Of a DNA stretch of 25,385 nt, positions 1-24,135 are shown one piece after another (within the stretch, counting starts at the first letter, position 1; the number at the start of each line of letters is the position of its first letter). The stretch is from a virus. Below the pieces are notes generated by a model. It was not told the origin of the DNA. It made no database searches and was given only the letters and a program-made list of their open reading frames with translations. Location: IMG/VR virus record IMGVR_UViG_3300012919_000036, positions 1 through 25,385 of that record. One strand, 5' to 3'. The position numbers and the translations under genes were made by a program.

Positions 1-397
1 GGTCTGTTGTCCCTGCATACAAATCTGGATAGTAAAGATGCACTTCACTGCCCCACACTTCGTCTACTTTGCTTAGTCCGTCCTGTATAACTACCTCAGC
101 CATCTTCCGTCCTTGGACATGTACAAGATTTGTCTTGTTTGGTAGTTCTTCTCCTTTGGTGTAGTTTTCTAAAAAGCCGTGCATGGAGGTACCAACACCC
201 GCGGCTTCTTTGGTTATCTGCTTGGCTTTTTCTTCACCTACACGCTGACGCCAAGCAATCAGGTGTGTCTTGTCAGATGTTGCATCAAGTATTGTAGTAA
301 CACTGGGAACTTTTCCACCCCCAGGTGTTGCATACAATCTTTTTTTACCATCAATTCTTGTAAGGTCTTGATAGTCATAGACTCTGTTGATCTTCAT
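1..397 (-). CDS. PD-(D/E)XK exonuclease (RecB/Cas4/MGME1-like), 3' end off window
   Basis: An open frame starts at ATG 397 and runs off the left edge after 132 residues. The visible part fits the N-terminal half of phage RecB/MGME1-type nucleases: an early VPSVTTIL segment (residues 30-37), a GTSMHGFLENY helix whose His73 matches the conserved His of this family, then SEVHLYYPDLYAGTTD (residues 117-132). In that last segment the final Asp132 would be the motif II metal ligand. The E-x-K motif would lie beyond the edge and is not seen. Such enzymes degrade or trim DNA ends during replication and recombination. A consensus sigma70-type promoter lies directly upstream, with the -10 only 6 nt from the ATG. 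There is no Shine-Dalgarno sequence, so a leaderless transcript is likely. The fold call rests on motifs only. Confidence 0.8.
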   Translation of the reverse strand, partial: MKINRVYDYQDLTRIDGKKRLYATPGGGKVPSVTTILDATSDKTHLIAWRQRVGEEKAKQITKEAAGVGTSMHGFLENYTKGEELPNKTNLVHVQGRKMAEVVIQDGLSKVDEVWGSEVHLYYPDLYAGTTD

Positions 398-403
398 GTT
401 TTC

Positions 404-432
404 ATTATACGTTGATTGTTGTGTGTTGTCAA
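404..432 (-). promoter_or_regulatory. Consensus sigma70-type promoter for exonuclease
   Basis: On the minus strand TTGACA (432-427) and TATAAT (409-404) are separated by exactly 17 bp, a perfect match to the bacterial housekeeping consensus. The ATG at 397 starts 6 nt after the -10, so it sits at the predicted +1. The promoter begins 5 bp after the stop codon of the gene at 437-1057, which separates the virion gene from the nuclease gene. Confidence 0.8.
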
Positions 433-3345: not shown

Positions 3346-3638
3346 CGTCTCATTGCCTTGTTCATTCTTTGCACAGCTTTACTGGCTGGATTGAATCTTT
3401 TTGTAAATCTAGCTTTTCTAGCCATTCTAGCACCTTTTTGAGCTTTGGTACGCTTAAGAACAAAACGCTTTTTTAAATCTATTGGCTTACTGCACTGAGC
3501 AGGATTAGCCACTAATCTACCTTTTCTTTTGCCAAATGTACAACGATATTTCTTAGTAATACTACGACCCTTGCGAGCCCATACTATTTTGGCTTCAATT
3601 ACTGGTTGATCTTCATCTGTTAGCTCAAAAAGTTCCAT
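3342..3638 (-). CDS. Very basic small protein, possible nucleic-acid binding
   Basis: About 30 of the 98 residues are Lys or Arg, concentrated after residue 20. A short acidic N-terminus (MELFELTDEDQPVIEAK) is followed by a central part with two Cys (KYRCTFGKRKGRL, AQCSKP) and a strongly cationic C-terminal helix region (KGARMARKARFTKRF). I recall similar basic proteins in marine T4-like phages but no firm function. Binding of DNA or RNA, or packing inside the head, are reasonable guesses. There is no Shine-Dalgarno sequence; instead a late box (CTAAATA) ends 5 nt before the ATG, predicting a leaderless late mRNA. Confidence 0.85.
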   Translation of the reverse strand: MELFELTDEDQPVIEAKIVWARKGRSITKKYRCTFGKRKGRLVANPAQCSKPIDLKKRFVLKRTKAQKGARMARKARFTKRFNPASKAVQRMNKAMRR

Positions 3639-3643
3639 AATAG

Positions 3644-3651
3644 TATTTAGT
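3644..3651 (-). promoter_or_regulatory. Late promoter box (ACTAAATA) abutting start codon
   Basis: The minus strand reads ACTAAATACTATTATG, so TAAATA is followed by exactly 5 nt and then the ATG at 3638. With T4 late-promoter geometry (box about -13 to -6) the A of the ATG would be +1. The sequence around the start is the same as at 24128-24135. Confidence 0.65.
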
Positions 3652-9127: not shown

Positions 9128-10123
9128 TCACCTACAATATTGTTTTGTTAGCACACGTATTTTTGTTGGACTTGTATGTACATTATCTAATATACTTCGC
9201 ACTGTAAACATCCTGCCATATTTTTGCTGAGCATCTACACAATCTTTACAATCTTCCCAAGGTGGAAAACTTACTCCCCAACCTCTCTCTATAGCACGTT
9301 GCACTAATTTTTGTCCTGCTTCATCCCTATCTGGACAAACTATCACTTCCTTATTTAGACTATCAATGATGTCGGCTTGACGTCTACTGCAAATATTACT
9401 TGCTATTGCTACACCACCTGTAACCAATGCATCAAATTGTCCTTCTGTGATGATTGTATAATGTCTTTCACGCTGTGCATCTAAATTAAACACATAATCT
9501 TTCTGTTGCTGTAAAAAATACTTTGGAGTATCCTTGTTTGGCACATCACCAATCCAACGTGCAGTATATCCAACAATTACATTTTTGTAGTAGAACGGCA
9601 ATATTATCCTGTCTGCAAAGTGTTTGAAATCGCTGTAGTACCAGTTTGCCAGTGTGTCCAGCTTTCTGGACGCAAGATATTGTAATGCTTCTTCTATTTT
9701 ATCGTCAATTGATACTAAGTCTAGTATACTTTTTGCATTTGGCGGTAGTTGTACTTCTTTCCAATCTATTTTTACTGTCTGAGCTTGTTCTACTGTACGT
9801 TTGTGCAGACTCTGTAGTTCATCTTCACGCATCAATTCCAAGTTTACACGCTGGATATCACTTTCATCTGCTCCAAATGTTTTCAACAAACCACGCAGTT
9901 TACCTGCTATCTGTCTACCACTGCTCCAACCAGTTTTAAACCCACAGTTGAAACAGTTGTATTGAAACTTGTCATCATCAAAAAAGAATCCGCCCCTGCC
10001 ACGTGTATCCGCATTTTCTCCGTTCTGCACACACATTGGACAGTTGCCAGATATCCATCCACTAGGATTGCTTTTCCAACCCATAGGAACAGTTTGTCTA
10101 ACAAACTCTAAAACAACACTCAT
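9128..10123 (-). CDS. 61: DNA primase gp61
   Basis: Makes RNA primers for lagging-strand synthesis with gp41. An N-terminal zinc-binding domain has Cys28, Cys31, Cys57 and Cys60 (CPMC and CFNC). A TOPRIM catalytic domain follows, with the conserved Glu227 in ITEGQFDAL and the Asp265-x-Asp267 pair in VCPDRDEAG. The length of 331 aa is normal for T4-type primases. There is no Shine-Dalgarno sequence, and the promoter upstream places +1 on or within a couple of nt of ATG 10123. The stop overlaps the helicase start region, consistent with coupled expression. Confidence 0.95.
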   Translation of the reverse strand: MSVVLEFVRQTVPMGWKSNPSGWISGNCPMCVQNGENADTRGRGGFFFDDDKFQYNCFNCGFKTGWSSGRQIAGKLRGLLKTFGADESDIQRVNLELMREDELQSLHKRTVEQAQTVKIDWKEVQLPPNAKSILDLVSIDDKIEEALQYLASRKLDTLANWYYSDFKHFADRIILPFYYKNVIVGYTARWIGDVPNKDTPKYFLQQQKDYVFNLDAQRERHYTIITEGQFDALVTGGVAIASNICSRRQADIIDSLNKEVIVCPDRDEAGQKLVQRAIERGWGVSFPPWEDCKDCVDAQQKYGRMFTVRSILDNVHTSPTKIRVLTKQYCR

Positions 10124-10131
10124 ATATGTAT

Positions 10132-10158
10132 ATTATACTCTAATTGTGATTTTGTCAA
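10132..10158 (-). promoter_or_regulatory. Sigma70-type promoter for primase-helicase
   Basis: TTGACA lies at 10158-10153. The -10 can be read as TATAAT (10137-10132, spacer 15) or TAATAT (10135-10130, spacer 17). Either puts the transcription start 0-2 nt from ATG 10123. The distance from TTGACA to the ATG is 35 nt, the same as at the exonuclease gene. The promoter lies in the last codons of the virion-type gene at 10133. Confidence 0.7.
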
Positions 10159-10957
10159 CGGTGCCGGTGTTATCCGCTGTGGCTTCATAGTAAAAACGTA
10201 CCTTGTAAAGATTGTGTACAAAATTTATTGCTCGCACACCTGAAGTTGGAGATGCATAGTTTTCATGCCCTGTAAGTCCATTTGTATCAATCAAAAAGTA
10301 ATCAGAATCAGTTGGTTCTGCTTCTACTGTCCCTTGTACGTATATTTTACCTTTAAAATTGGTAGTGTATATGGCCACTGTGTGTAATCCATCTCTTGAA
10401 CCTTTTAGTATACTGCCGTTGGTTGCACTACTATACTGTGGGTCTGTAGCACCAGCACCACCAGTAAAACTTGTCAAAGCTGTTACTTCTGGCATAGCCG
10501 GCAATGGTCCGTCACGTACTTCAACAGTGAATTGTCCTGTTGTATTCAACTGCGGACTCAGTAAAAATTCTTCGCCATCATTGTTAATGCTGGTAATTGC
10601 AAAATCATACAGTGTTGGACTTAGATTTGCAATATCTCCAGGCACTAGTTTAAAGGTTATTTTTGCATCATCGTAGCTGTCTACAATAGCGTTTTTGGTT
10701 ACAACTATAGTTTGATCATTTCTTTTTATCAATTTGCCTTTTATAGTAACGTTATTGATATCTGCTGTACGCCTACTTTTATCATTGATAACTAAATGTA
10801 TGTGGTTATCAACTCCTTTATTTAAAACGAAAGGTTGGTAAGAAGTAGGAGAATTTACCGTGGTACTACGCTTGTAGTATCGGTTATACTGAGAGTTACT
10901 AGTATCTTTATTAAGAGTTGCTTCTCCGGTATTGGTATAATTATATGCTGTAGCCAT
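10133..10957 (-). CDS. Virion-type beta-rich protein, BppU-like N-terminal domain
   Basis: A 274-residue protein rich in Thr, Asn, Ser and Asp with mostly beta strands. Residues about 50-135 (HIHLVINDK, DINNVTIKGKLIKRND, ITFKLVPGDIANL, TLYDFAITSIN) resemble the Ig-like fold at the start of baseplate BppU-type proteins. A Gly/Ala/Pro-rich linker follows, and residues about 185-274 form a second beta domain ending in DKITIRV. It is likely a baseplate, tail-tip or decoration protein. A TAAATA late box ends 5 nt before the ATG, supporting late expression and a leaderless mRNA. No signal peptide is seen. Confidence 0.85.
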   Translation of the reverse strand: MATAYNYTNTGEATLNKDTSNSQYNRYYKRSTTVNSPTSYQPFVLNKGVDNHIHLVINDKSRRTADINNVTIKGKLIKRNDQTIVVTKNAIVDSYDDAKITFKLVPGDIANLSPTLYDFAITSINNDGEEFLLSPQLNTTGQFTVEVRDGPLPAMPEVTALTSFTGGAGATDPQYSSATNGSILKGSRDGLHTVAIYTTNFKGKIYVQGTVEAEPTDSDYFLIDTNGLTGHENYASPTSGVRAINFVHNLYKVRFYYEATADNTGTVDKITIRV

Positions 10958-10962
10958 ACACT

Positions 10963-10968
10963 TATTTA
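10963..10968 (-). promoter_or_regulatory. Late promoter box (TAAATA) abutting start codon
   Basis: The minus strand reads GGTAAATAAGTGTATG. TAAATA is followed by 5 nt and the ATG at 10957, the same geometry as at 3644 and 24128. The two bases before TAAATA (GG) differ from the T4 consensus, so this is a weaker match. It lies in the 20-bp gap shared with the divergent plus-strand gene. Confidence 0.5.
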
Positions 10969-10977
10969 CCTATTATT

Positions 10978-15049: not shown

Positions 15050-16497
15050 TAATAATCAACTTTCTGCACTGAAAAAGGGTAGTGTGCTTCCCTGTAAAAC
15101 TTCTTACGTTGAGTAAGATGCCTTTTGCTAAACTTACAACTTGATGTTATATCCCAAATTTGTATATGATCTTTGTCCTTGGCTTTACGTATGCCACGAC
15201 CTATGCTCTGTATAACTCTTACAAAAGATTTACCAGGCTCAATAAGAACAAGATTGAAGATGCGAGGAATATTGATTCCCACCGCGGCAACTCCATAAGT
15301 CGCAATAACAACCATGTTTGTAGATTCGTTAATTTCTGTATAAGTGTCTTTTCTGTCTGCACTTTTCATTGCTCCTTTCACAAAGGTTGCGTTTGGTAGC
15401 AGTTCCTGTAGTTTTTCACCACACTTGATTCTGTCAACAAGCACCAATGTATTGCCATTTTGGCTCATTGCATCTATAAGGCCACTAATATAATTTAGCC
15501 TCTTTTGATCAGTTACCAAATATGTGAGCTCACTTTGATAGTTTGGAAAGTCAACTGTATCCTGCATTTGTACAATATCAATATTGCACTCTGCAAGCAC
15601 ACCTTCTTCCTGTAGCTCATGTGCTGACAGTTTGTTAATAACCTGCCCTAGTCCAGCACGTATGCCAAAGAACTCGTGTTGCTCTTTGGGTATTGTGCCT
15701 GTAAGTCCCCAACGCAATGGCACATTACTGAATGGACCTGTCAACAGTTTCTTTAACACATCTGCTTTTGCTTGATGCACTTCGTCTACCATAACACATA
15801 CAACACCCTGCAAAAACTCTGCTAGACTAATTTCACTGAGTCCATCTCTGTAACGTTTCTCCATGGTGTTCAAACTTTGCCATGTGCATATTGTATGTGT
15901 TTTGTTCATTTCTTTTTTGTCACCAAAATACACGCCAACATCTAAGCCCATATTCTCGTAATCTTCTGCGGTTTGTCTTACAAGATCTTTGTTGGGTACT
16001 ATAACCACTGTTCTTCCATACTGTTCTACACGTTCACTGAGTGCGGCCGTAATCAATGTTTTGCCAGCACCAGTGGCTATCTCTTGGACGCACTGTGGCG
16101 TATCCAAGAACTGATTGATAATAGCAACTTGATAATCACGCAGTACTATAGGTTCACCTTCTACAGGATGACCTTTGGGCCATGTTAGATTTGTATATGT
16201 ATTTTCATCAACTGGTTGTGTTGCAAAATCTACATGCTGTCTACGATCATCAAGATCTATTTCATAACCATCTGATTCAAGTATTGGTAGTATTTCATCT
16301 AGTAGATTAATATATGTACTTCCGCCCATTGAAAAAAATTGCACAGTACCATCCCAGCGACCTAGCTTGTATGCAGGAACATGATATGCATACGGCAAAA
16401 AGAACTTCAGCTTGTCCATGCACTTTCTTCTTGTGCTGGTGGCTAGTCCTTCTACTTTACAATTCACTTCATCTTTGAGTACAATTTTACATTTCAT
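15049..16497 (-). CDS. uvsW: DNA/RNA helicase UvsW
   Basis: Superfamily 2 helicase that remodels branched DNA and R-loops and helps switch the phage from origin to recombination-driven replication. A small N-terminal domain of about 100 residues precedes the motor. Walker A is ATGAGKT (141-147), motif II is DEVH (238-241) and motif III is GLTGTIP (264-270). The C-terminal lobe has NTLVLVDRIKCGEKL and QSIGRGIRKAK (motif VI, with the arginine finger). The length of 482 aa is close to T4 UvsW (about 500). It starts 9 nt after the preceding gene with no strong Shine-Dalgarno sequence. Confidence 0.95.
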   Translation of the reverse strand: MKCKIVLKDEVNCKVEGLATSTRRKCMDKLKFFLPYAYHVPAYKLGRWDGTVQFFSMGGSTYINLLDEILPILESDGYEIDLDDRRQHVDFATQPVDENTYTNLTWPKGHPVEGEPIVLRDYQVAIINQFLDTPQCVQEIATGAGKTLITAALSERVEQYGRTVVIVPNKDLVRQTAEDYENMGLDVGVYFGDKKEMNKTHTICTWQSLNTMEKRYRDGLSEISLAEFLQGVVCVMVDEVHQAKADVLKKLLTGPFSNVPLRWGLTGTIPKEQHEFFGIRAGLGQVINKLSAHELQEEGVLAECNIDIVQMQDTVDFPNYQSELTYLVTDQKRLNYISGLIDAMSQNGNTLVLVDRIKCGEKLQELLPNATFVKGAMKSADRKDTYTEINESTNMVVIATYGVAAVGINIPRIFNLVLIEPGKSFVRVIQSIGRGIRKAKDKDHIQIWDITSSCKFSKRHLTQRKKFYREAHYPFSVQKVDY

Positions 16498-16506
16498 AAT
16501 AGCAGT

Positions 16507-17103
16507 TTACACTCTTTCTTGCAATATGTCAAGGTTTGCTTTTGTCCATAAATTTGCAAATGCAACAAAATCATCAACTTGTAGTTCAACAGAAAAAACA
16601 GTTTCTATCCAGTCAAATAGTATTCTAACTTGCTTTGTACTGTTCCAAAAAATATTTGGTTCAATATGATAATAATGACAACCGTTCAACAGTTGATCTA
16701 TTTTTAGTTTATCGTAAATTTCTGTTGGCACTGCATTGTCAAGTTTTTTGCTTTTTATTTTGTTTACCCAATCAGCACTTTCTAAGGTTGTTGAACAAAG
16801 CACTATAATTGCACTATTCCAATCTTGCCAACTATTTTTTGTTTCAGATAAATCTTCAAGTTTATAGAAATGCTTTCTGTGTAGGTTAATGAGTTTGTCA
16901 TCAGTGATCCAATTTGTGTCGCCTTGTCTATCCAAGTGCTGATTATTAAAACAGTTAATACTTGGACCATGTAGATTCCATTTGTTAACACTTGAGATTA
17001 CCTTTGCTTTTTGTGTAACAAATGGTAATTGCTGACCAAGTGTCCAAGTTAAAAACTCACCACCAGATCCTGCACTGTAAATTATATCTAAAACTTTTTT
17101 CAT
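16507..17103 (-). CDS. P-loop-like / possible sulfotransferase-like protein, 198 aa
   Basis: The N-terminus MKKVLDIIYSAGSGGEFLTW has a hydrophobic strand, an AGSGG loop and a helix, like the 5'-phosphosulfate loop of sulfotransferases or a broken P-loop. The lysine of a true Walker A is absent. The C-terminal part (RILFDWIETVFSVELQVDDF, then LWTKANLDIL) matches the layout of the sister proteins at 3947 and 11910. A modifying enzyme is possible but not shown. The gene lies between two tandem hairpins (17118-17186) and uvsW. No clear Shine-Dalgarno sequence is present. Confidence 0.8.
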   Translation of the reverse strand: MKKVLDIIYSAGSGGEFLTWTLGQQLPFVTQKAKVISSVNKWNLHGPSINCFNNQHLDRQGDTNWITDDKLINLHRKHFYKLEDLSETKNSWQDWNSAIIVLCSTTLESADWVNKIKSKKLDNAVPTEIYDKLKIDQLLNGCHYYHIEPNIFWNSTKQVRILFDWIETVFSVELQVDDFVAFANLWTKANLDILQERV

Positions 17104-17117
17104 ATTACATATAGGGT

Positions 17118-17146
17118 GAGGAGAAGCCGTTTGTTGACTTCTCCTC
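17118..17146. repeat. Inverted repeat, 9-bp stem, 11-nt loop
   Basis: GAGGAGAAG (17118-17126) pairs perfectly with CTTCTCCTC (17138-17146). It lies in the 88-bp gap between the AAA+ ATPase stop and the start of the gene at 16507. There is no T-run after it, so it is not a standard terminator; it could slow the polymerase, block RNase or act on translation of the next gene. The arm facing the next gene is rich in anti-Shine-Dalgarno-like CTCCTC. Confidence 0.65.
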
Positions 17147-17147
17147 T

Positions 17148-17186
17148 ACGGTCCATTGGAGTGAGAGAGGGCGTAGGTTGGACCGT
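17148..17186. repeat. Inverted repeat, 8-bp stem, adjacent to first hairpin
   Basis: ACGGTCCA (17148-17155) pairs with TGGACCGT (17179-17186) across a 23-nt loop. A short alternative palindrome (TCCATTGGA, 17152-17160) overlaps one arm, so two mutually exclusive folds are possible. The stem begins 2 bp from the first hairpin, forming a tandem structure just after the AAA+ ATPase gene. Confidence 0.6.
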
Positions 17187-17191
17187 GACTC

Positions 17192-18031
17192 TTAGCTAAC
17201 CTTTCTCTTCATGCATGTAACCTCAACGTACCTTTTCCAGCCCTTGGGTTGATGCTTCATAAGATCAGCAATCTTTGTTACCATTCGCAAACTAACTTCT
17301 CTCAAGTTTTCTTTGTTTGCATCCATGTAATTCATTAGTGCAGTTTCCTGCCCCTTTTCGAACTTGTAGCTATTAAGCATACCATCTTTAACCAACTGCT
17401 TACACCTTAGGAACTTGTCCCTCATAGTATCAAGTGTAAGATCCAAATAGTGACACCTGGACATAATAGCATCTAGGTGGTCTTTTAGTTTACCTCGTGT
17501 ACCTTCAAACTTCAAGTTTGTAATAAAGATAACACTACCTTTAAATTCAAACCTATCAGGAATACCTTCACGTCTTAGCAGAGCACTATCTGTGTTCCAG
17601 CTCAACATTCTCCTAGCACCACTATCAAGTGCGGCCTTGAGCAAGTTCAATGATGTTTCATCATGTAATACTGTGTCACAGTCATCCATAACCAACACAG
17701 ACCCTTTGTCTGAGTTTTCATAAAGAACTTTGTACAAACCAATGGCACTCGAAGCACCTTTGATAACTTGGAAACGATCTCGCTTACCAGCCATCTTATC
17801 AAACATTCTGTTTTCGTTGAGCACCTGCTCAACACCAAATGACTTACCAACACCTGGAGGTCCAGTAACAACCATACCTCGCACAACACCATCAACTGAT
17901 GCTTGTGTCATGTCATTTAAAATATCAAATCGTTCACGTAAACGTTTGATCACTTGAGCATCTGTCTCGACTTTTTCAGCCTTCTTGACAGTTACTTTTG
18001 TATTTTTGGAAATTTTTAATTTAGTAGCCAT
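17192..18031 (-). CDS. AAA+ ATPase
   Basis: A 279-residue ATPase. A basic N-terminal tail (about 1-25) leads to Walker A GPPGVGKS (57-64), Walker B VLVMDDCD (112-118), a sensor-1 FITN (169-172) and a C-terminal helical lid. The pattern fits the small stand-alone AAA+ proteins of marine T4-like phages; it lacks features of the gp44 clamp loader or a protease. Substrate and partner are unknown. I start at ATG 18031, 9 nt after AAGGAG. A GTG at 18040 sits right on the Shine-Dalgarno sequence and is unlikely. It has its own sigma70-type promoter, so it is probably an early or middle gene. Confidence 0.9.
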   Translation of the reverse strand: MATKLKISKNTKVTVKKAEKVETDAQVIKRLRERFDILNDMTQASVDGVVRGMVVTGPPGVGKSFGVEQVLNENRMFDKMAGKRDRFQVIKGASSAIGLYKVLYENSDKGSVLVMDDCDTVLHDETSLNLLKAALDSGARRMLSWNTDSALLRREGIPDRFEFKGSVIFITNLKFEGTRGKLKDHLDAIMSRCHYLDLTLDTMRDKFLRCKQLVKDGMLNSYKFEKGQETALMNYMDANKENLREVSLRMVTKIADLMKHQPKGWKRYVEVTCMKRKVS

Positions 18032-18071
18032 GTGTCTCACTCCTTGACTGTTTTTTGTTACCTACACTATT

Positions 18072-18100
18072 ATAATACGACAGGGTGCATAAAAGGTCAA
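18072..18100 (-). promoter_or_regulatory. Sigma70-type promoter for AAA+ ATPase
   Basis: TTGACC (18100-18095) and TATTAT (18077-18072) are separated by 17 bp. The -35 overlaps the TGA stop of the gene at 18097. The leader of about 35 nt carries AAGGAG. It shares the AAAGGTTGACYT start with the promoters at 19213 and 19824 but lacks their palindrome. Confidence 0.75.
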
Positions 18101-18834: not shown

Positions 18835-18991
18835 TTGCTTCTTGCTCCATCTGTTGTTCGCATTTTTCAAATTCTGCTCTTTTATCAGCAATCATTTTTT
18901 GTACTGTTTTGATAACCTGTAGTTGATCGCCTTGATCTAATTTATCAAGCAATAGTTCTAAATTATCAATATCTTGTAATAGTTCTGTCAT
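18818..18991 (-). CDS. Small coiled-coil protein, 57 aa
   Basis: A short gene reading MTELLQDIDNLELLLDKLDQ at the start and ending EANDVCG. It is almost entirely charged helix with heptad-like Leu spacing, so a coiled coil is likely, and has two Cys (44 and 56). Its ATG overlaps the preceding stop as ATGA, and its end overlaps the next gene by 17 nt, which supports it being real. The function is unknown; it may dimerise or bind a partner. Confidence 0.75.
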   Translation of the reverse strand: MTELLQDIDNLELLLDKLDQGDQLQVIKTVQKMIADKRAEFEKCEQQMEQEANDVCG

Positions 18992-19206
18992 TGTATATCC
19001 CAGCAGTCTTTTACTTTTCTAAATTTAATAGCTTCAATGCAACCCATTCTGTCCTTCATACCTAGCGGACCTTTTTCTTTCATAAACATCTTCATGGCTT
19101 TTTCTTTAGAAGCCTTTTTTGTCATGCCTACTGTTCTAAGTGTATAAGTTTTACGTCTTCCTTGAAGCGGTGTTACGTATGTAAATGTTAATTTTGTTTC
19201 TATCAT
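18988..19206 (-). CDS. Small basic conserved hypothetical, 72 aa
   Basis: A basic protein (IETKLTFTYVTPLQGRRKTY, then KASKEKAMKMFMKEKG) with an N-terminal beta pair and central Lys-rich helix; no family is recognised. I start at ATG 19206, which lies exactly 35 nt after the TTGACT -35 of its promoter and at the predicted +1. The upstream ATG 19224 lies inside the promoter and would not be in the transcript. The stop overlaps the next start as ATGA. Confidence 0.75.
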   Translation of the reverse strand: MIETKLTFTYVTPLQGRRKTYTLRTVGMTKKASKEKAMKMFMKEKGPLGMKDRMGCIEAIKFRKVKDCWDIQ

Positions 19207-19212
19207 ATTATT

Positions 19213-19241
19213 ATAGTAAGACATCTTGCTATAGAAGTCAA
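19213..19241 (-). promoter_or_regulatory. Sigma70-type promoter with near-palindromic operator
   Basis: TTGACT (19241-19236) and TACTAT (19218-19213) are 17 bp apart; a TATAAT lies 3 bp further down as an alternative -10. Between them the minus strand reads GCAAGATGTCTTAC (19229-19216), nearly palindromic and almost identical to the site at 19827-19840. The palindrome would cover the -10 upstream edge, a classic place for a repressor. Confidence 0.7.
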
Positions 19242-19249
19242 CCTTTTTA

Positions 19250-19447
19250 TTAATCTAAATCGCACTGCCAATAAGTACCATCAAACCAAGCACGAAGACC
19301 ACCTATAGGATAATCTTTATGCTCAAAGAATATGTAAGGACGACCACTTGCGTCTATTTTCTGTTCAATGATACTGGCTTCCTTTAAAGGTATTAGACGT
19401 TCTTCACCAGTATCTTCATAGTAAGCACTATTAAAAATACGTATCAT
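19250..19447 (-). CDS. Small conserved hypothetical, 65 aa
   Basis: A beta-rich small protein (YIFFEHKDYPIGGLRAWFDG, then TYWQCDLD) that may fold as a small barrel; no family is recognised. It is coupled to the upstream gene through TAATG. It ends just before the promoter at 19213-19241, so it is the last gene of its own small unit. Confidence 0.75.
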   Translation of the reverse strand: MIRIFNSAYYEDTGEERLIPLKEASIIEQKIDASGRPYIFFEHKDYPIGGLRAWFDGTYWQCDLD

Positions 19448-19794
19448 TATAATACCTCATTCCAACCAAAACTAGCACAAACAAATTTTTTACCCGACGG
19501 ATCTTCAACCACGTCACCAACACTAACTGAAAACATAGGCGCTAGTCTCTCAATGTTTTCTTCTGGACCTATATTACCTACTTCAAACACTTTTTCAATG
19601 CTGTCAGCAGTAATATTAGAAACATGTGTATACCAAGCATTATCAAATGCTTTTTTGGCTAACGCACCTGGATCATCACTAAATGACATATCAATTTTAG
19701 TCAGGTGTTTTTCAACAGAGTTATGCCCTTCAGCATTTACTTTGTTGTATTCAGCATCTGTAAGATGTATTTGGAAAAGTTTATATTTGTTCAT
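19447..19794 (-). CDS. Conserved hypothetical, 115 aa
   Basis: An alpha/beta protein (KYKLFQIHLTDAEYNKVNAE, then VGNIGPEENIERLAPMFSVS, then VGDVVEDPSGKKFVCASFGW). I recall the VGNIGPEENIERL...SVSVGDVV pattern from marine T4-like phages, without a function. GAGGT is present upstream of ATG 19794. It is read from the operator-bearing promoter at 19824-19852 together with the 65-residue gene, probably early. Confidence 0.85.
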   Translation of the reverse strand: MNKYKLFQIHLTDAEYNKVNAEGHNSVEKHLTKIDMSFSDDPGALAKKAFDNAWYTHVSNITADSIEKVFEVGNIGPEENIERLAPMFSVSVGDVVEDPSGKKFVCASFGWNEVL

Positions 19795-19823
19795 TACGAC
19801 CTCTTTTTTCTAACTATACATAT

Positions 19824-19852
19824 AGTGTAAGACATCTTACTTGAAAGGTCAA
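19824..19852 (-). promoter_or_regulatory. Sigma70-type promoter with perfect palindromic operator
   Basis: TTGACC (19852-19847) is followed after 17 bp by TACACT (19829-19824), a weak -10. Inside the spacer and -10 edge lies GTAAGATGTCTTAC (19840-19827), a perfect 6-2-6 palindrome on both strands. The same site recurs at 19216-19229. A phage or host regulator could bind here. Confidence 0.65.
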
Positions 19853-21642: not shown

Positions 21643-21663
21643 ACTTTTCTCCTCTAATGAAAA

Positions 21664-21687
21664 GCAAAGGGACTTTCGCCCCTCTGC
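21664..21687 (-). terminator. GAAA-tetraloop hairpin between gp32 and uvsX
   Basis: On the minus strand GCAGAGGGGC, GAAA and GTCCCTTTGC form a 10-bp stem (two G-U pairs) capped by a GNRA-type GAAA loop. It is followed by CTTTTCATT, so it may be a partial terminator that limits read-through from gp32, or an RNA-stabilising end. The uvsX ribosome-binding site starts soon after, so some transcription must pass or restart. Confidence 0.65.
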
Positions 21688-21701
21688 TAATGTTTATCAA
21701 A

Positions 21702-22709
21702 TTAGTCGTTTTTTCTAGCTCTTATTTTTGCTAAAATATCCTGAGCACTTGGTTTATCACCTTCTGCTTCAGCAGGTGCTGGTGCAGGTGTTGGTGCAGG
21801 AGCAGGAGTTTCAGCTACTGGTTCTGCTGGTGCAGGAGCCGGTGCTGGTGTAGTTTCTGCTACTGGAGTTGGTGCTGGTTGAGGAGCAGGAGTGGCGTTT
21901 GGAGCACCTGCGGGTGCCGCCATTCCCATAGGACGATAAAATTGTCCAAACTCTTCTGGATCATAGAGTTGACCATCTACTGATGCTTCAAACATTCGCT
22001 TGATAGCATCTACTTGTTCAGCACTTGGTCTAGCAGGCATAAAGTCGTTTAGATTGAACAAACCATTTGCCTCAATAGCATCTAGTTCATTTTGATCCAA
22101 ACTACGTTCACGTCTTGACCAATTACTTGTACTGTAGTCAGCATATTGACCTTTTGTAGTTTTGTGAATTTTAAAGTCAGTACCTTCGTTGGTATCTGTT
22201 GGTAGAGCCGGAAAGTCCGGATCCATCAATGCTTGTTTTATAATATTAAAGATTTGCGGACCCATAATAAACCTTCGAATTGGATTCTCTGGTGTTGTGT
22301 CCTCTTGCAGATCACTGTTTACTACAAAGCCTTGGAAAATATAAGAACGCTTCTTCCAATACTTCCTACCCATGTCTTCAAGACTTGGATCTTTAAACCA
22401 TGCACGAACTTCGTTGAGTACTGGACATGATCCAGCTGGTTCCCACATTTCCATGCAAGGAACATTCACTGTTACTCGTTTGCCATCAGCTTGACCTTTT
22501 ACGCCAGCAAAATCCAAACGAATCATTTGACGTTCACGCCAAAAGAAATCGTTGGTTGTATCACCATCGTTTAAAAATCTAACTGTTGCGGAAGTATTTT
22601 CTGCTAAGTTCCAGAAAGGAAATATTGCGTTATCTCCACCTGCTGTTCTAGAACCGCCTGTATTTTCTTGTGCTAGTAGTTTAGCACGAATTTCTGCCAA
22701 TGTTGCCAT
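21702..22709 (-). CDS. 32: Single-stranded DNA-binding protein gp32
   Basis: Coats single strands during replication, recombination and repair. The N-terminus (MATLAEIRAKLLAQENTGGS) resembles the basic cooperativity segment. The OB-fold core holds FPFWNLAENTSATVRFLNDG, MIRLDFAGV, Cys85 and Cys95 (C-x9-C). Those two match part of the T4 zinc site, but the third Cys and the His are not seen, so zinc may be lost. Residues 265-316 are a Pro/Ala repeat linker, ending in DKPSAQDILAKIRARKND, a likely partner-binding tip. T4 gp32 has an acidic tail there instead. AGGAG precedes the ATG; a consensus promoter lies upstream. Confidence 0.95.
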   Translation of the reverse strand: MATLAEIRAKLLAQENTGGSRTAGGDNAIFPFWNLAENTSATVRFLNDGDTTNDFFWRERQMIRLDFAGVKGQADGKRVTVNVPCMEMWEPAGSCPVLNEVRAWFKDPSLEDMGRKYWKKRSYIFQGFVVNSDLQEDTTPENPIRRFIMGPQIFNIIKQALMDPDFPALPTDTNEGTDFKIHKTTKGQYADYSTSNWSRRERSLDQNELDAIEANGLFNLNDFMPARPSAEQVDAIKRMFEASVDGQLYDPEEFGQFYRPMGMAAPAGAPNATPAPQPAPTPVAETTPAPAPAPAEPVAETPAPAPTPAPAPAEAEGDKPSAQDILAKIRARKND

Positions 22710-22763
22710 AATGTTTCTCCTATATAAGCCTTAGTATTGCCAATTTGCTTGACTATAACTTTC

Positions 22764-22792
22764 AGTATACAGCCAAACAACAAAAGTGTCAA
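22764..22792 (-). promoter_or_regulatory. Consensus sigma70-type promoter for gp32
   Basis: TTGACA (22792-22787) and TATACT (22769-22764) are 17 bp apart, close to full consensus. The leader of about 48 nt holds AGGAG before ATG 22709. The 90-bp gap to the previous gene has no other feature. A strong promoter fits the high demand for gp32. Confidence 0.8.
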
Positions 22793-22799
22793 GTGAAAA

Positions 22800-24122
22800 T
22801 TAAAACTTTGGTATAAAATTTTCAAATGACTCTTCAAGTGATTCAACTGCCTGATGCTCTATGCTTGAACCTGATTCTTCAGCTTCTTTTGACATTGTAG
22901 CATTTTTATACAAATAGTCAATCACTTTCTTTACACCCATGATTAGTTTAGGGTGCATCATGTGAACATCATCGCTAATTCTAGCTAGATGATTGCTCAC
23001 TGTGTCGTCTGTTGTCCTCTGTGCTAAGTAACCTGCCATAGCACTGATTTTTGCAACGACTCCTGAAGGACCACTAAATTTAGCAGGGTCTTGTGCTTCA
23101 GGATTAGCCGGATCATCAGCTTCTACGCCTTTGAATCCGATCATCTTCTTGTCTTGTATATATTTTGCAAGAGCTACAGCATTGTCTCTTGCTTCAGTTT
23201 TTGCATCTGCTTCTTTCATCAAACGTGTTACTACGCCAAGTGCGTCATTAAGTCCTTCATCAAAATGTTTTGCTGTAAACCTTTCACGCATTTTATTGAC
23301 TTTTGCAGGTGATGTTGTTTGTTTGTTGTGCTTGTATTCACAACTACATGATTCATAATATGACTGACTTTGTAGTTTTTTGATGTGTTCGCGTATTTTG
23401 TTTTTCTGTTCTTTAACCACTTCAACTACATCATCATTGCCTTCTATTAAACCATTTTTGTTTACCCAACGTTCAAATTTGTACAAATCTGACAGTTCTT
23501 TGCTTTGTTCTATGATGTGTTGTCCAAAGTCATCATATGGAGTTCCGCCTTCTTTAACGTGTCGTAGCATTGCTCTAGCACCAGCTAGATGGTTATGTGG
23601 ATATTGAAATCTTTCACCCGCACTATTCTCAAGGTAAATTGCTTGGATGTTTCTGCTTCTACTACCACGTACTTCTTCATCTACTGCTTTTTTGTGTTTG
23701 ATTATAATCTTACTATCTTTGAGATCTTGATAACTTGTTTTGGAATAACCATATGGTTTACCATAACTTTCCATTGTATTTTGTTGCATAGCTACTTTTC
23801 CTTGATAAGCGAAATCCTTTGGTTCTATTTGTTTGCTGAACTTTTGTAGACTGAACTCTATTAAATTTTTGTTTGCTATAGCTTTTAGTCCATCAAACAG
23901 TTTTTTAAATTCTTGGATAGGCCGTTCGCCACCATAACTTACTCTAATTTCTGATTTTGACTCACTGGTATCATAGTGAATCATAATTTTGCTGTCTTTT
24001 AAATAAAAACGTTTTGCTTCATCTGAATCTAATGTGCTTTCACCCTCTTGGGTAAACAGTACAACATTTTCTCCAAAGGCTTTTACAAAATCAAAAATTT
24101 TATCAGATATGATGTTTTCCAT
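22800..24122 (-). CDS. Large conserved phage protein, 440 aa, late expressed
   Basis: No family is recognised. The first 120 residues are alpha/beta (NVVLFTQEGESTLDSDEAKR, then IRVSYGGERPIQEFKKLFDG). A basic middle segment (KDSKIIIKHKKAVDEEV, then GSRSRNIQAIYLENSAG) leads to a long helical region with two adjacent Cys (SCSCEYKH), and the C-terminus is acidic (EEESGSSIEHQ-like, ending FENFIPKF). I recall a similar large protein in marine T4-like phages. The late box TATAAATA ends 5 nt before the ATG, so it is late and probably leaderless. A virion or assembly role is inferred only from this. Confidence 0.85.
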   Translation of the reverse strand: MENIISDKIFDFVKAFGENVVLFTQEGESTLDSDEAKRFYLKDSKIMIHYDTSESKSEIRVSYGGERPIQEFKKLFDGLKAIANKNLIEFSLQKFSKQIEPKDFAYQGKVAMQQNTMESYGKPYGYSKTSYQDLKDSKIIIKHKKAVDEEVRGSRSRNIQAIYLENSAGERFQYPHNHLAGARAMLRHVKEGGTPYDDFGQHIIEQSKELSDLYKFERWVNKNGLIEGNDDVVEVVKEQKNKIREHIKKLQSQSYYESCSCEYKHNKQTTSPAKVNKMRERFTAKHFDEGLNDALGVVTRLMKEADAKTEARDNAVALAKYIQDKKMIGFKGVEADDPANPEAQDPAKFSGPSGVVAKISAMAGYLAQRTTDDTVSNHLARISDDVHMMHPKLIMGVKKVIDYLYKNATMSKEAEESGSSIEHQAVESLEESFENFIPKF

Positions 24123-24127
24123 AATAG

Positions 24128-24135
24128 TATTTATA
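24128..24135 (-). promoter_or_regulatory. Perfect T4 late promoter (TATAAATA) abutting start codon
   Basis: The minus strand reads TATAAATACTATTATG: the full T4 late octamer, 5 nt, then ATG 24122. It lies in the 17-bp gap after the terminase stop codon. With T4 geometry the transcript begins at the A of the ATG. Confidence 0.75.

Follow-up and report, generated by a model that had tools for sequence, protein, structure and literature searches.

Does a phage promoter whose predicted transcription start falls on the start codon mark a gene that is translated from a leaderless mRNA? The question is raised by a 25,385-base virus record from IMG/VR, referred to here as the window (the whole stretch that was analysed), in which an earlier note had placed the ATG of three genes at the predicted +1 and had read this as leaderless mRNAs by design. 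Almost all window genes lie on the minus strand. Products named by profile searches include an exonuclease, a primase, a DnaB-type helicase, a UvsW-type helicase, an AAA+ ATPase, a single-strand binding protein and a virion structural protein. The protein encoded at 20548-21642 matches RecA/UvsX-type recombinases, and its nearest named relatives are in jumbo phages (e.g. Atu_ph07, Phosso, RaK2, GAP32); no tRNA or Rfam elements were found in the window. Taken together, the comparisons described below make it very probable that conserved leaderless mRNAs are produced from a fixed subset of genes, under two promoter classes, in a lineage of large T4-related phages.

Four window genes (with start codons at 397, 10123, 16497 and 19206; Table 1) share the layout TTGACx-17-TAnnnT-6-ATG, with 35 nt from the first T of the -35 to the A of the ATG and with no Shine-Dalgarno (SD) motif at any of them. 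All four promoters are of sigma70 type (TTGACA plus TATAAT, spacer 17 ± 1). Relative to this consensus, the site at 397 matches in 12/12 positions, those at 10123 and 16497 in 10/12 and that at 19206 in 9/12. At the primase, the final codons and the stop codon of the upstream gene extend into the -35 and -10, and a perfect TATAAT also lies two bases upstream of the -10, with a 15-nt spacer. At ORF 19206 the -10 is weak and an in-frame ATG lies upstream at 19224, and the layout is not conserved, with 26 nt between -10 and ATG in a relative that is 90% identical (L086). The 35-nt distance and missing SD motif given by the earlier note for the exonuclease, the primase and 19206 are confirmed. In its gene list, 19206 is a case that relatives do not share, and the UvsW gene at 16497 and the genes with late promoters had been missed.

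Taken literally as TTGAC-N29-ATG, the pattern has no match in the window; a T-to-A spacing of 35 corresponds to TTGAC-N30-ATG. The latter occurs 5 times versus 1.6 expected (at least 5 in 3/100 shuffles), a modest enrichment that includes a chance intragenic match at 5066-5029. When a -10 and a gene start are also required, 4/8 promoter-gene pairs in the window fall at a single offset (~5e-6 under uniform offsets 0-60). The significance of the spacing is taken from this requirement and from the relatives, and not from the bare pattern.

Table 1. Promoters and start codons in the window, with offsets counted from the end of the -10 or of the late octamer to the ATG.
Feature	Coordinates	Strand	Layout
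Exonuclease	395..432	-	-35 TTGACA 432-427, spacer 17, -10 TATAAT 409-404, 6 nt, ATG 397-395
Primase	10121..10158	-	-35 TTGACA 10158-10153, spacer 17, -10 TAATAT 10135-10130, 6 nt, ATG 10123-10121
UvsW-like helicase	16495..16532	-	-35 TTGACA 16532-16527, spacer 17, -10 TAAACT 16509-16504, 6 nt, ATG 16497-16495
ORF 18988-19206 (weak case)	19204..19241	-	TTGACT 19241-19236, spacer 17, TACTAT 19218-19213, 6 nt, ATG 19206-19204
Virion structural protein gene, late-type	24120..24135	-	TATAAATA 24135-24128 (exact), CTATT, ATG 24122-24120
3638 gene, late-type	3636..3651	-	ACTAAATA 3651-3644 (two mismatches), CTATT, ATG 3638-3636
10957 gene, late-type, weaker	10955..10970	-	GGTAAATA 10970-10963 (two mismatches), AGTGT, ATG 10957-10955
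AAA+ ATPase	18029..18100	-	TTGACC-17-TATTAT, 40 nt with SD, ATG 18031
gp32-like single-strand binding protein	22707..22792	-	TTGACA-17-TATACT, 54 nt with SD, ATG 22709
ORF 19447-19794	19792..19852	-	TTGACC-17-TACACT, 29 nt with SD-like GAGG, ATG 19794

Three further sigma70-type promoters in the window precede genes with leaders. As the earlier note had stated, the gp32-like, AAA+ ATPase and 19447-19794 genes are preceded by ribosome-binding sites (offsets 54, 40 and 29, all with SD-like motifs), and for gp32 an SD is present in 63/63 orthologue upstreams.

Relatives of the window were sampled as 250 loci, fetched for RecA, primase, exonuclease and UvsW (four metagenomic sets), with gene starts set either by simple ORF calling or by aligning to the window protein. 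From the end of the -10 to the first in-frame ATG of a called gene, offset 6 is found at 107 distinct sites and offset 7 at 20. Other nearby offsets have mostly 1-8 sites, few fall at 8-15, and a second, broad mode extends from 17 up. Seventeen protein families contribute at least one case at offset 6. The combined counts at offsets 6 and 7 in the four sets (20, 62, 37 and 10) compare with means of 3.4, 3.2, 4.0 and 0.2 for permuted hexamers; in the primase set, which contains repeated related sequences, single permutations reach up to 17. The earlier note had made its proposal depend on an excess of the 35-nt spacing in relatives, and this excess is very large.

The layout is specific to certain genes. 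With orthologue starts placed by alignment to the window protein, it is found in 52/59 distinct upstreams of the primase, 37/60 of UvsW and 26/68 of the exonuclease, versus 0/63 for gp32, 0/43 for the AAA+ ATPase, 0/58 for DnaB and 3/88 for RecA; these counts are of distinct sequences and not of independent events, and are inflated by related phages. For the primase, UvsW and exonuclease together, an SD occurs in 0/115 leaderless-type starts versus 37/72 other upstreams (Fisher p ~2e-19, ignoring relatedness), and the start codon is ATG in 114/115 leaderless-type cases. The base at -1 is a pyrimidine in 50/52 primase and 37/37 UvsW cases. Among relatives, offset 6 is maintained while the spacer and flanking sequence change, and 22 UvsW upstreams that are <75% identical (picked by pattern) have the -35 and -10 in common and little else. 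In a quick UvsW tree, 38/60 rows are of leaderless type and five changes are needed. The leaderless-type rows belong to one environmental clade that includes the window; the orthologues outside it, from enteric, rhizobial and Vibrio phages and from another environmental clade, are leadered. At many of the exonuclease loci L176-L187 and L190-L194 the gene is preceded by a shared block, GTAATATATACAGAATG or a close variant of it, at offset 7 from the -10, and some of these loci have TTGACA 17 nt upstream.

At most primase loci the -35 lies within the last codons of the upstream gene, which encode Gly-Thr-x-Asp-Lys. Residue x is Leu, Val or Ile, with a codon that always ends in TT, so that TTGAC is kept. 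The Asp codon is GAC in 40/40 cases (14 clusters), versus 35% of Asp codons in these phages. TTGACA stands at an unchanged distance also in primase loci that lack the Gly-Thr-x-Asp-Lys C-terminus. The residue varies and TTGAC does not, which argues that selection is acting on the DNA at the primase -35; upstream coding constraint as the cause of TTGAC at this position is ruled out by the codon test.

A second promoter class follows the same rule at a different spacing. The T4 late promoter is an octamer, TATAAATA, with its first base at -13 (PMC2988020). This leaves five bases to +1, so that TATAAATA-N5-ATG places the ATG at +1. Such promoters, for which a -35 is not needed, are found in the window (Table 1). 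In the relatives, TATAAATA precedes an ATG at offset 5 in 33 distinct cases and at each other offset in 0-7, and permuted octamers give 0-2 cases at offset 5; the relaxed motif TAAATA gives 122 at offset 5. The late layout at 24122 is retained in close relatives (L246, L249, L253), and TAAATA-N5-ATG precedes most orthologues of the 3638 gene, down to 43% identity. In the 10957 family, the window, L086 and L088 have TAAATA-N5-ATG without an SD, and the rest have offsets of 16-25 with mostly SD-like leaders, with none in between. Two classes of different geometry, each with the ATG at its own +1, indicate that the transcription start, and not some unrelated rule of spacing, sets the distance.

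The independently annotated Pelagibacter (SAR11) phage HTVC008M serves as a separate test group, and the late-class layout, as judged from its genome, held there. TAAATA lies 5 nt before 12/197 of its starts, versus ≤3 for other offsets, and the genes at offset 5 include those for the tape measure, a DNA end protector, baseplate and head proteins. Offset 5 is found in 23/24 distinct upstreams of gp027 (tail tube cap) relatives, and offset 5 or 6 in 25/28 of gp053 (baseplate wedge) relatives. A late sigma factor, gp55, and a co-activator are annotated in HTVC008M; the window covers a fragment of its own phage. TAAATA-N5-ATG-type matches number one in T4, and none was found in P-SSM2. At several HTVC008M starts (L345-L347; 97061, 118253 and 135062) the distance from an early-type promoter to the annotated ATG is 11-12 nt, and either leaders of ∼5 nt or other start sites would follow from this.

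Sigma70-class layouts were also read in cultured phages. The primase of Pseudomonas phage PA5oct has TTGACA-17-TATAAT-6-GTG, an exception to the use of ATG, and an exonuclease-like gene of the same phage has TTGACA-17-TATAAT-7-ATG. The PA5oct promoters were read singly, since an additional in-frame GTG that immediately follows the -10 misled the automatic offset count. In Salicola phage SCTP-2 (L263, record 160185 and 160281), TTGACA-16-TAGCAT-6-ATG leads to an in-frame primase start 96 nt upstream of the annotated one. The upstream ATG agrees with the family N-terminus by alignment, and the annotated start looks wrong. The layout is not a property of all relatives: in GAP32, RaK2, 121Q, Munch, Vibrio 2.275, Atu_ph07 and Phosso, the genes examined are leadered. 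Whole-genome pattern counts in these seven isolates include many chance intragenic matches and were never used alone.

In the proposed mechanism, host-type sigma70 promoters (TTGACA-17-TATAAT) would make the A of the ATG the +1, and T4-type late promoters (octamer at -13 to -6) would do the same after 5 nt. No SD would be required: a ribosome, probably a 70S particle carrying initiator tRNA, would bind directly to the AUG at the 5' end. The predicted leaderless set includes the sigma70-class genes for exonuclease, primase and UvsW helicase, along with several late genes of structural type; gp32 and the AAA+ ATPase share the sigma70 promoter type and would retain longer leaders and SDs. The geometry, its conservation, the missing SDs and the missing short leaders are features of the genomes themselves, from which we infer transcription from the A and leaderless translation; the earlier note's reading, itself drawn from promoter geometry, is supported by the relatives and by the second class. 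Readthrough transcripts of upstream genes could carry these genes with a leader too. Possible motives for leaderless use are escape from SD-dependent competition, the setting of dosage, or a response to ribosome changes in infection.

Several promoters share bases with the end of the preceding gene (as the primase -10 does with a stop codon), as might be expected if genome compaction had pressed promoters onto start codons and translation proceeded mainly from upstream readthrough transcripts. Compaction should, however, give a spread of short distances, and the offsets instead form spikes at 6 (sigma70) and 5 (late), with few at 8-15. The distance is also the same in orthologues with quite different upstream sequence, and the 10957 family has offset 5, or 16 and more, with nothing between, and we regard compaction as unlikely. 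That the conserved blocks are non-SD translation signals, or reflect coding constraint on the upstream gene, and are not promoters at all, is suggested by TTGACAAA, which at many primase loci lies within the coding end of the upstream gene. This is extremely improbable, as a consensus -35 at 17-nt spacing persists without coding overlap, synonymous choice is fixed so that TTGAC stays, and the T4-late octamer obeys the same rule with another spacing.

Biologically close to the leaderless reading is a transcription start 1-3 nt upstream of the A, which would give a tiny leader and an mRNA that is not strictly leaderless. Sigma70 promoters vary in start site by 1-2 nt, which counts in its favor, as do the frequent offset 7 at the exonuclease and the 6 nt after TAAATA in gp053 relatives. 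The main spikes, at 6 and 5, are nevertheless one base wide, and a pyrimidine, the preferred kind of base at -1, almost always precedes the start codon; a tiny leader is judged very unlikely. A further proposal builds on leaderless translation: the leaderless genes may form a translational regulon, in which the phage would shift ribosome preference during infection toward leaderless phage mRNAs over SD-led host mRNAs, e.g. via its own bS21. HTVC008M, PA5oct and 12/36 IMG/VR records searched encode bS21, which was also noted in records W01, W02, W03, W07, W08 and W12. It is frequent in this phage group but missing from the enteric members, T4 and P-SSM2, and likewise from GAP32, RaK2, 121Q and Munch. 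Phosso, Atu_ph07 and Vibrio 2.275 carry bS21 and yet have leadered copies of the examined genes, so that its presence is no clean match to the layout. The link between bS21 and leaderless genes is weak for this reason, and a regulon of this kind is doubtful.

Leaderless phage mRNAs are familiar from the lambda repressor cI transcribed from PRM, which starts at the A of the AUG and has no SD. The genes described here resemble cI in being phage genes with the predicted +1 at the A of the AUG and no SD, and differ in that a set of replication and structural genes is involved, conserved over a clade, and not single lysogeny genes of temperate phages. PMC4631060 cites work in which lambda cI is named. 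Zheng et al. 2011 (PMC3160421) described bacterial 'TA-led' genes, read as leaderless, with a TANNNT -10 ∼12 bp before the start instead of an SD. The window genes at 397, 10123, 16497 and 19206 all have a TANNNT at this distance and, like TA-led genes, no SD; unlike TA-led genes, which were described in cellular genomes, the present cases are particular orthologous genes of phages, with a full -35, and extend to a phage-specific late class. The late sites resemble T4 late promoters (PMC2988020) in the octamer from -13, the AT-rich downstream sequence and the late sigma factor annotated in HTVC008M, but in T4 most such octamers are followed by a leader and an SD, whereas here the ATG is often at +1. 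In Lactococcus cremoris (PMC10986495), leaders are <5 nt or ∼40 nt, with 4-14 nt empty. The offsets described here are similarly bimodal, and their scarcity at 8-15 fits an absence of very short leaders, although the L. cremoris leaders were mapped by experiment in a cellular transcriptome and those of the phages are read from sequence geometry. For jumbo phages and cyanophages, the open-licence literature yielded no previous description of the design, although one published elsewhere could be missed; PMC5312081 remarks briefly that transcripts of phages often lack a leader.

If this reading is correct, abundant marine phages, including SAR11 phages, would rely on leaderless mRNAs for some of their replication and virion proteins, with promoter placement fixing the leaderless state in both promoter classes. 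The orthologues form a natural series, leaderless in one clade and SD-led in another, for asking why phages initiate without leaders and whether ribosome preference shifts on infection. Start codons could be corrected where SD-based annotation errs (e.g. the SCTP-2 primase), +1 sites could be predicted from genomes of uncultured phages, and the layout in PA5oct makes the prediction testable in PAO1.

Two other intergenic elements were seen in the window. A strong stem-loop with a T-rich tail lies at 21663-21688 on the minus strand, between the gp32-like and RecA genes. The intergenic stretch 17105-17190, upstream of the gene at 16507-17103, contains an inverted repeat (GAGGAGAAG ... CTTCTCCTC), and a stretch similar to it precedes UvsW in L246.
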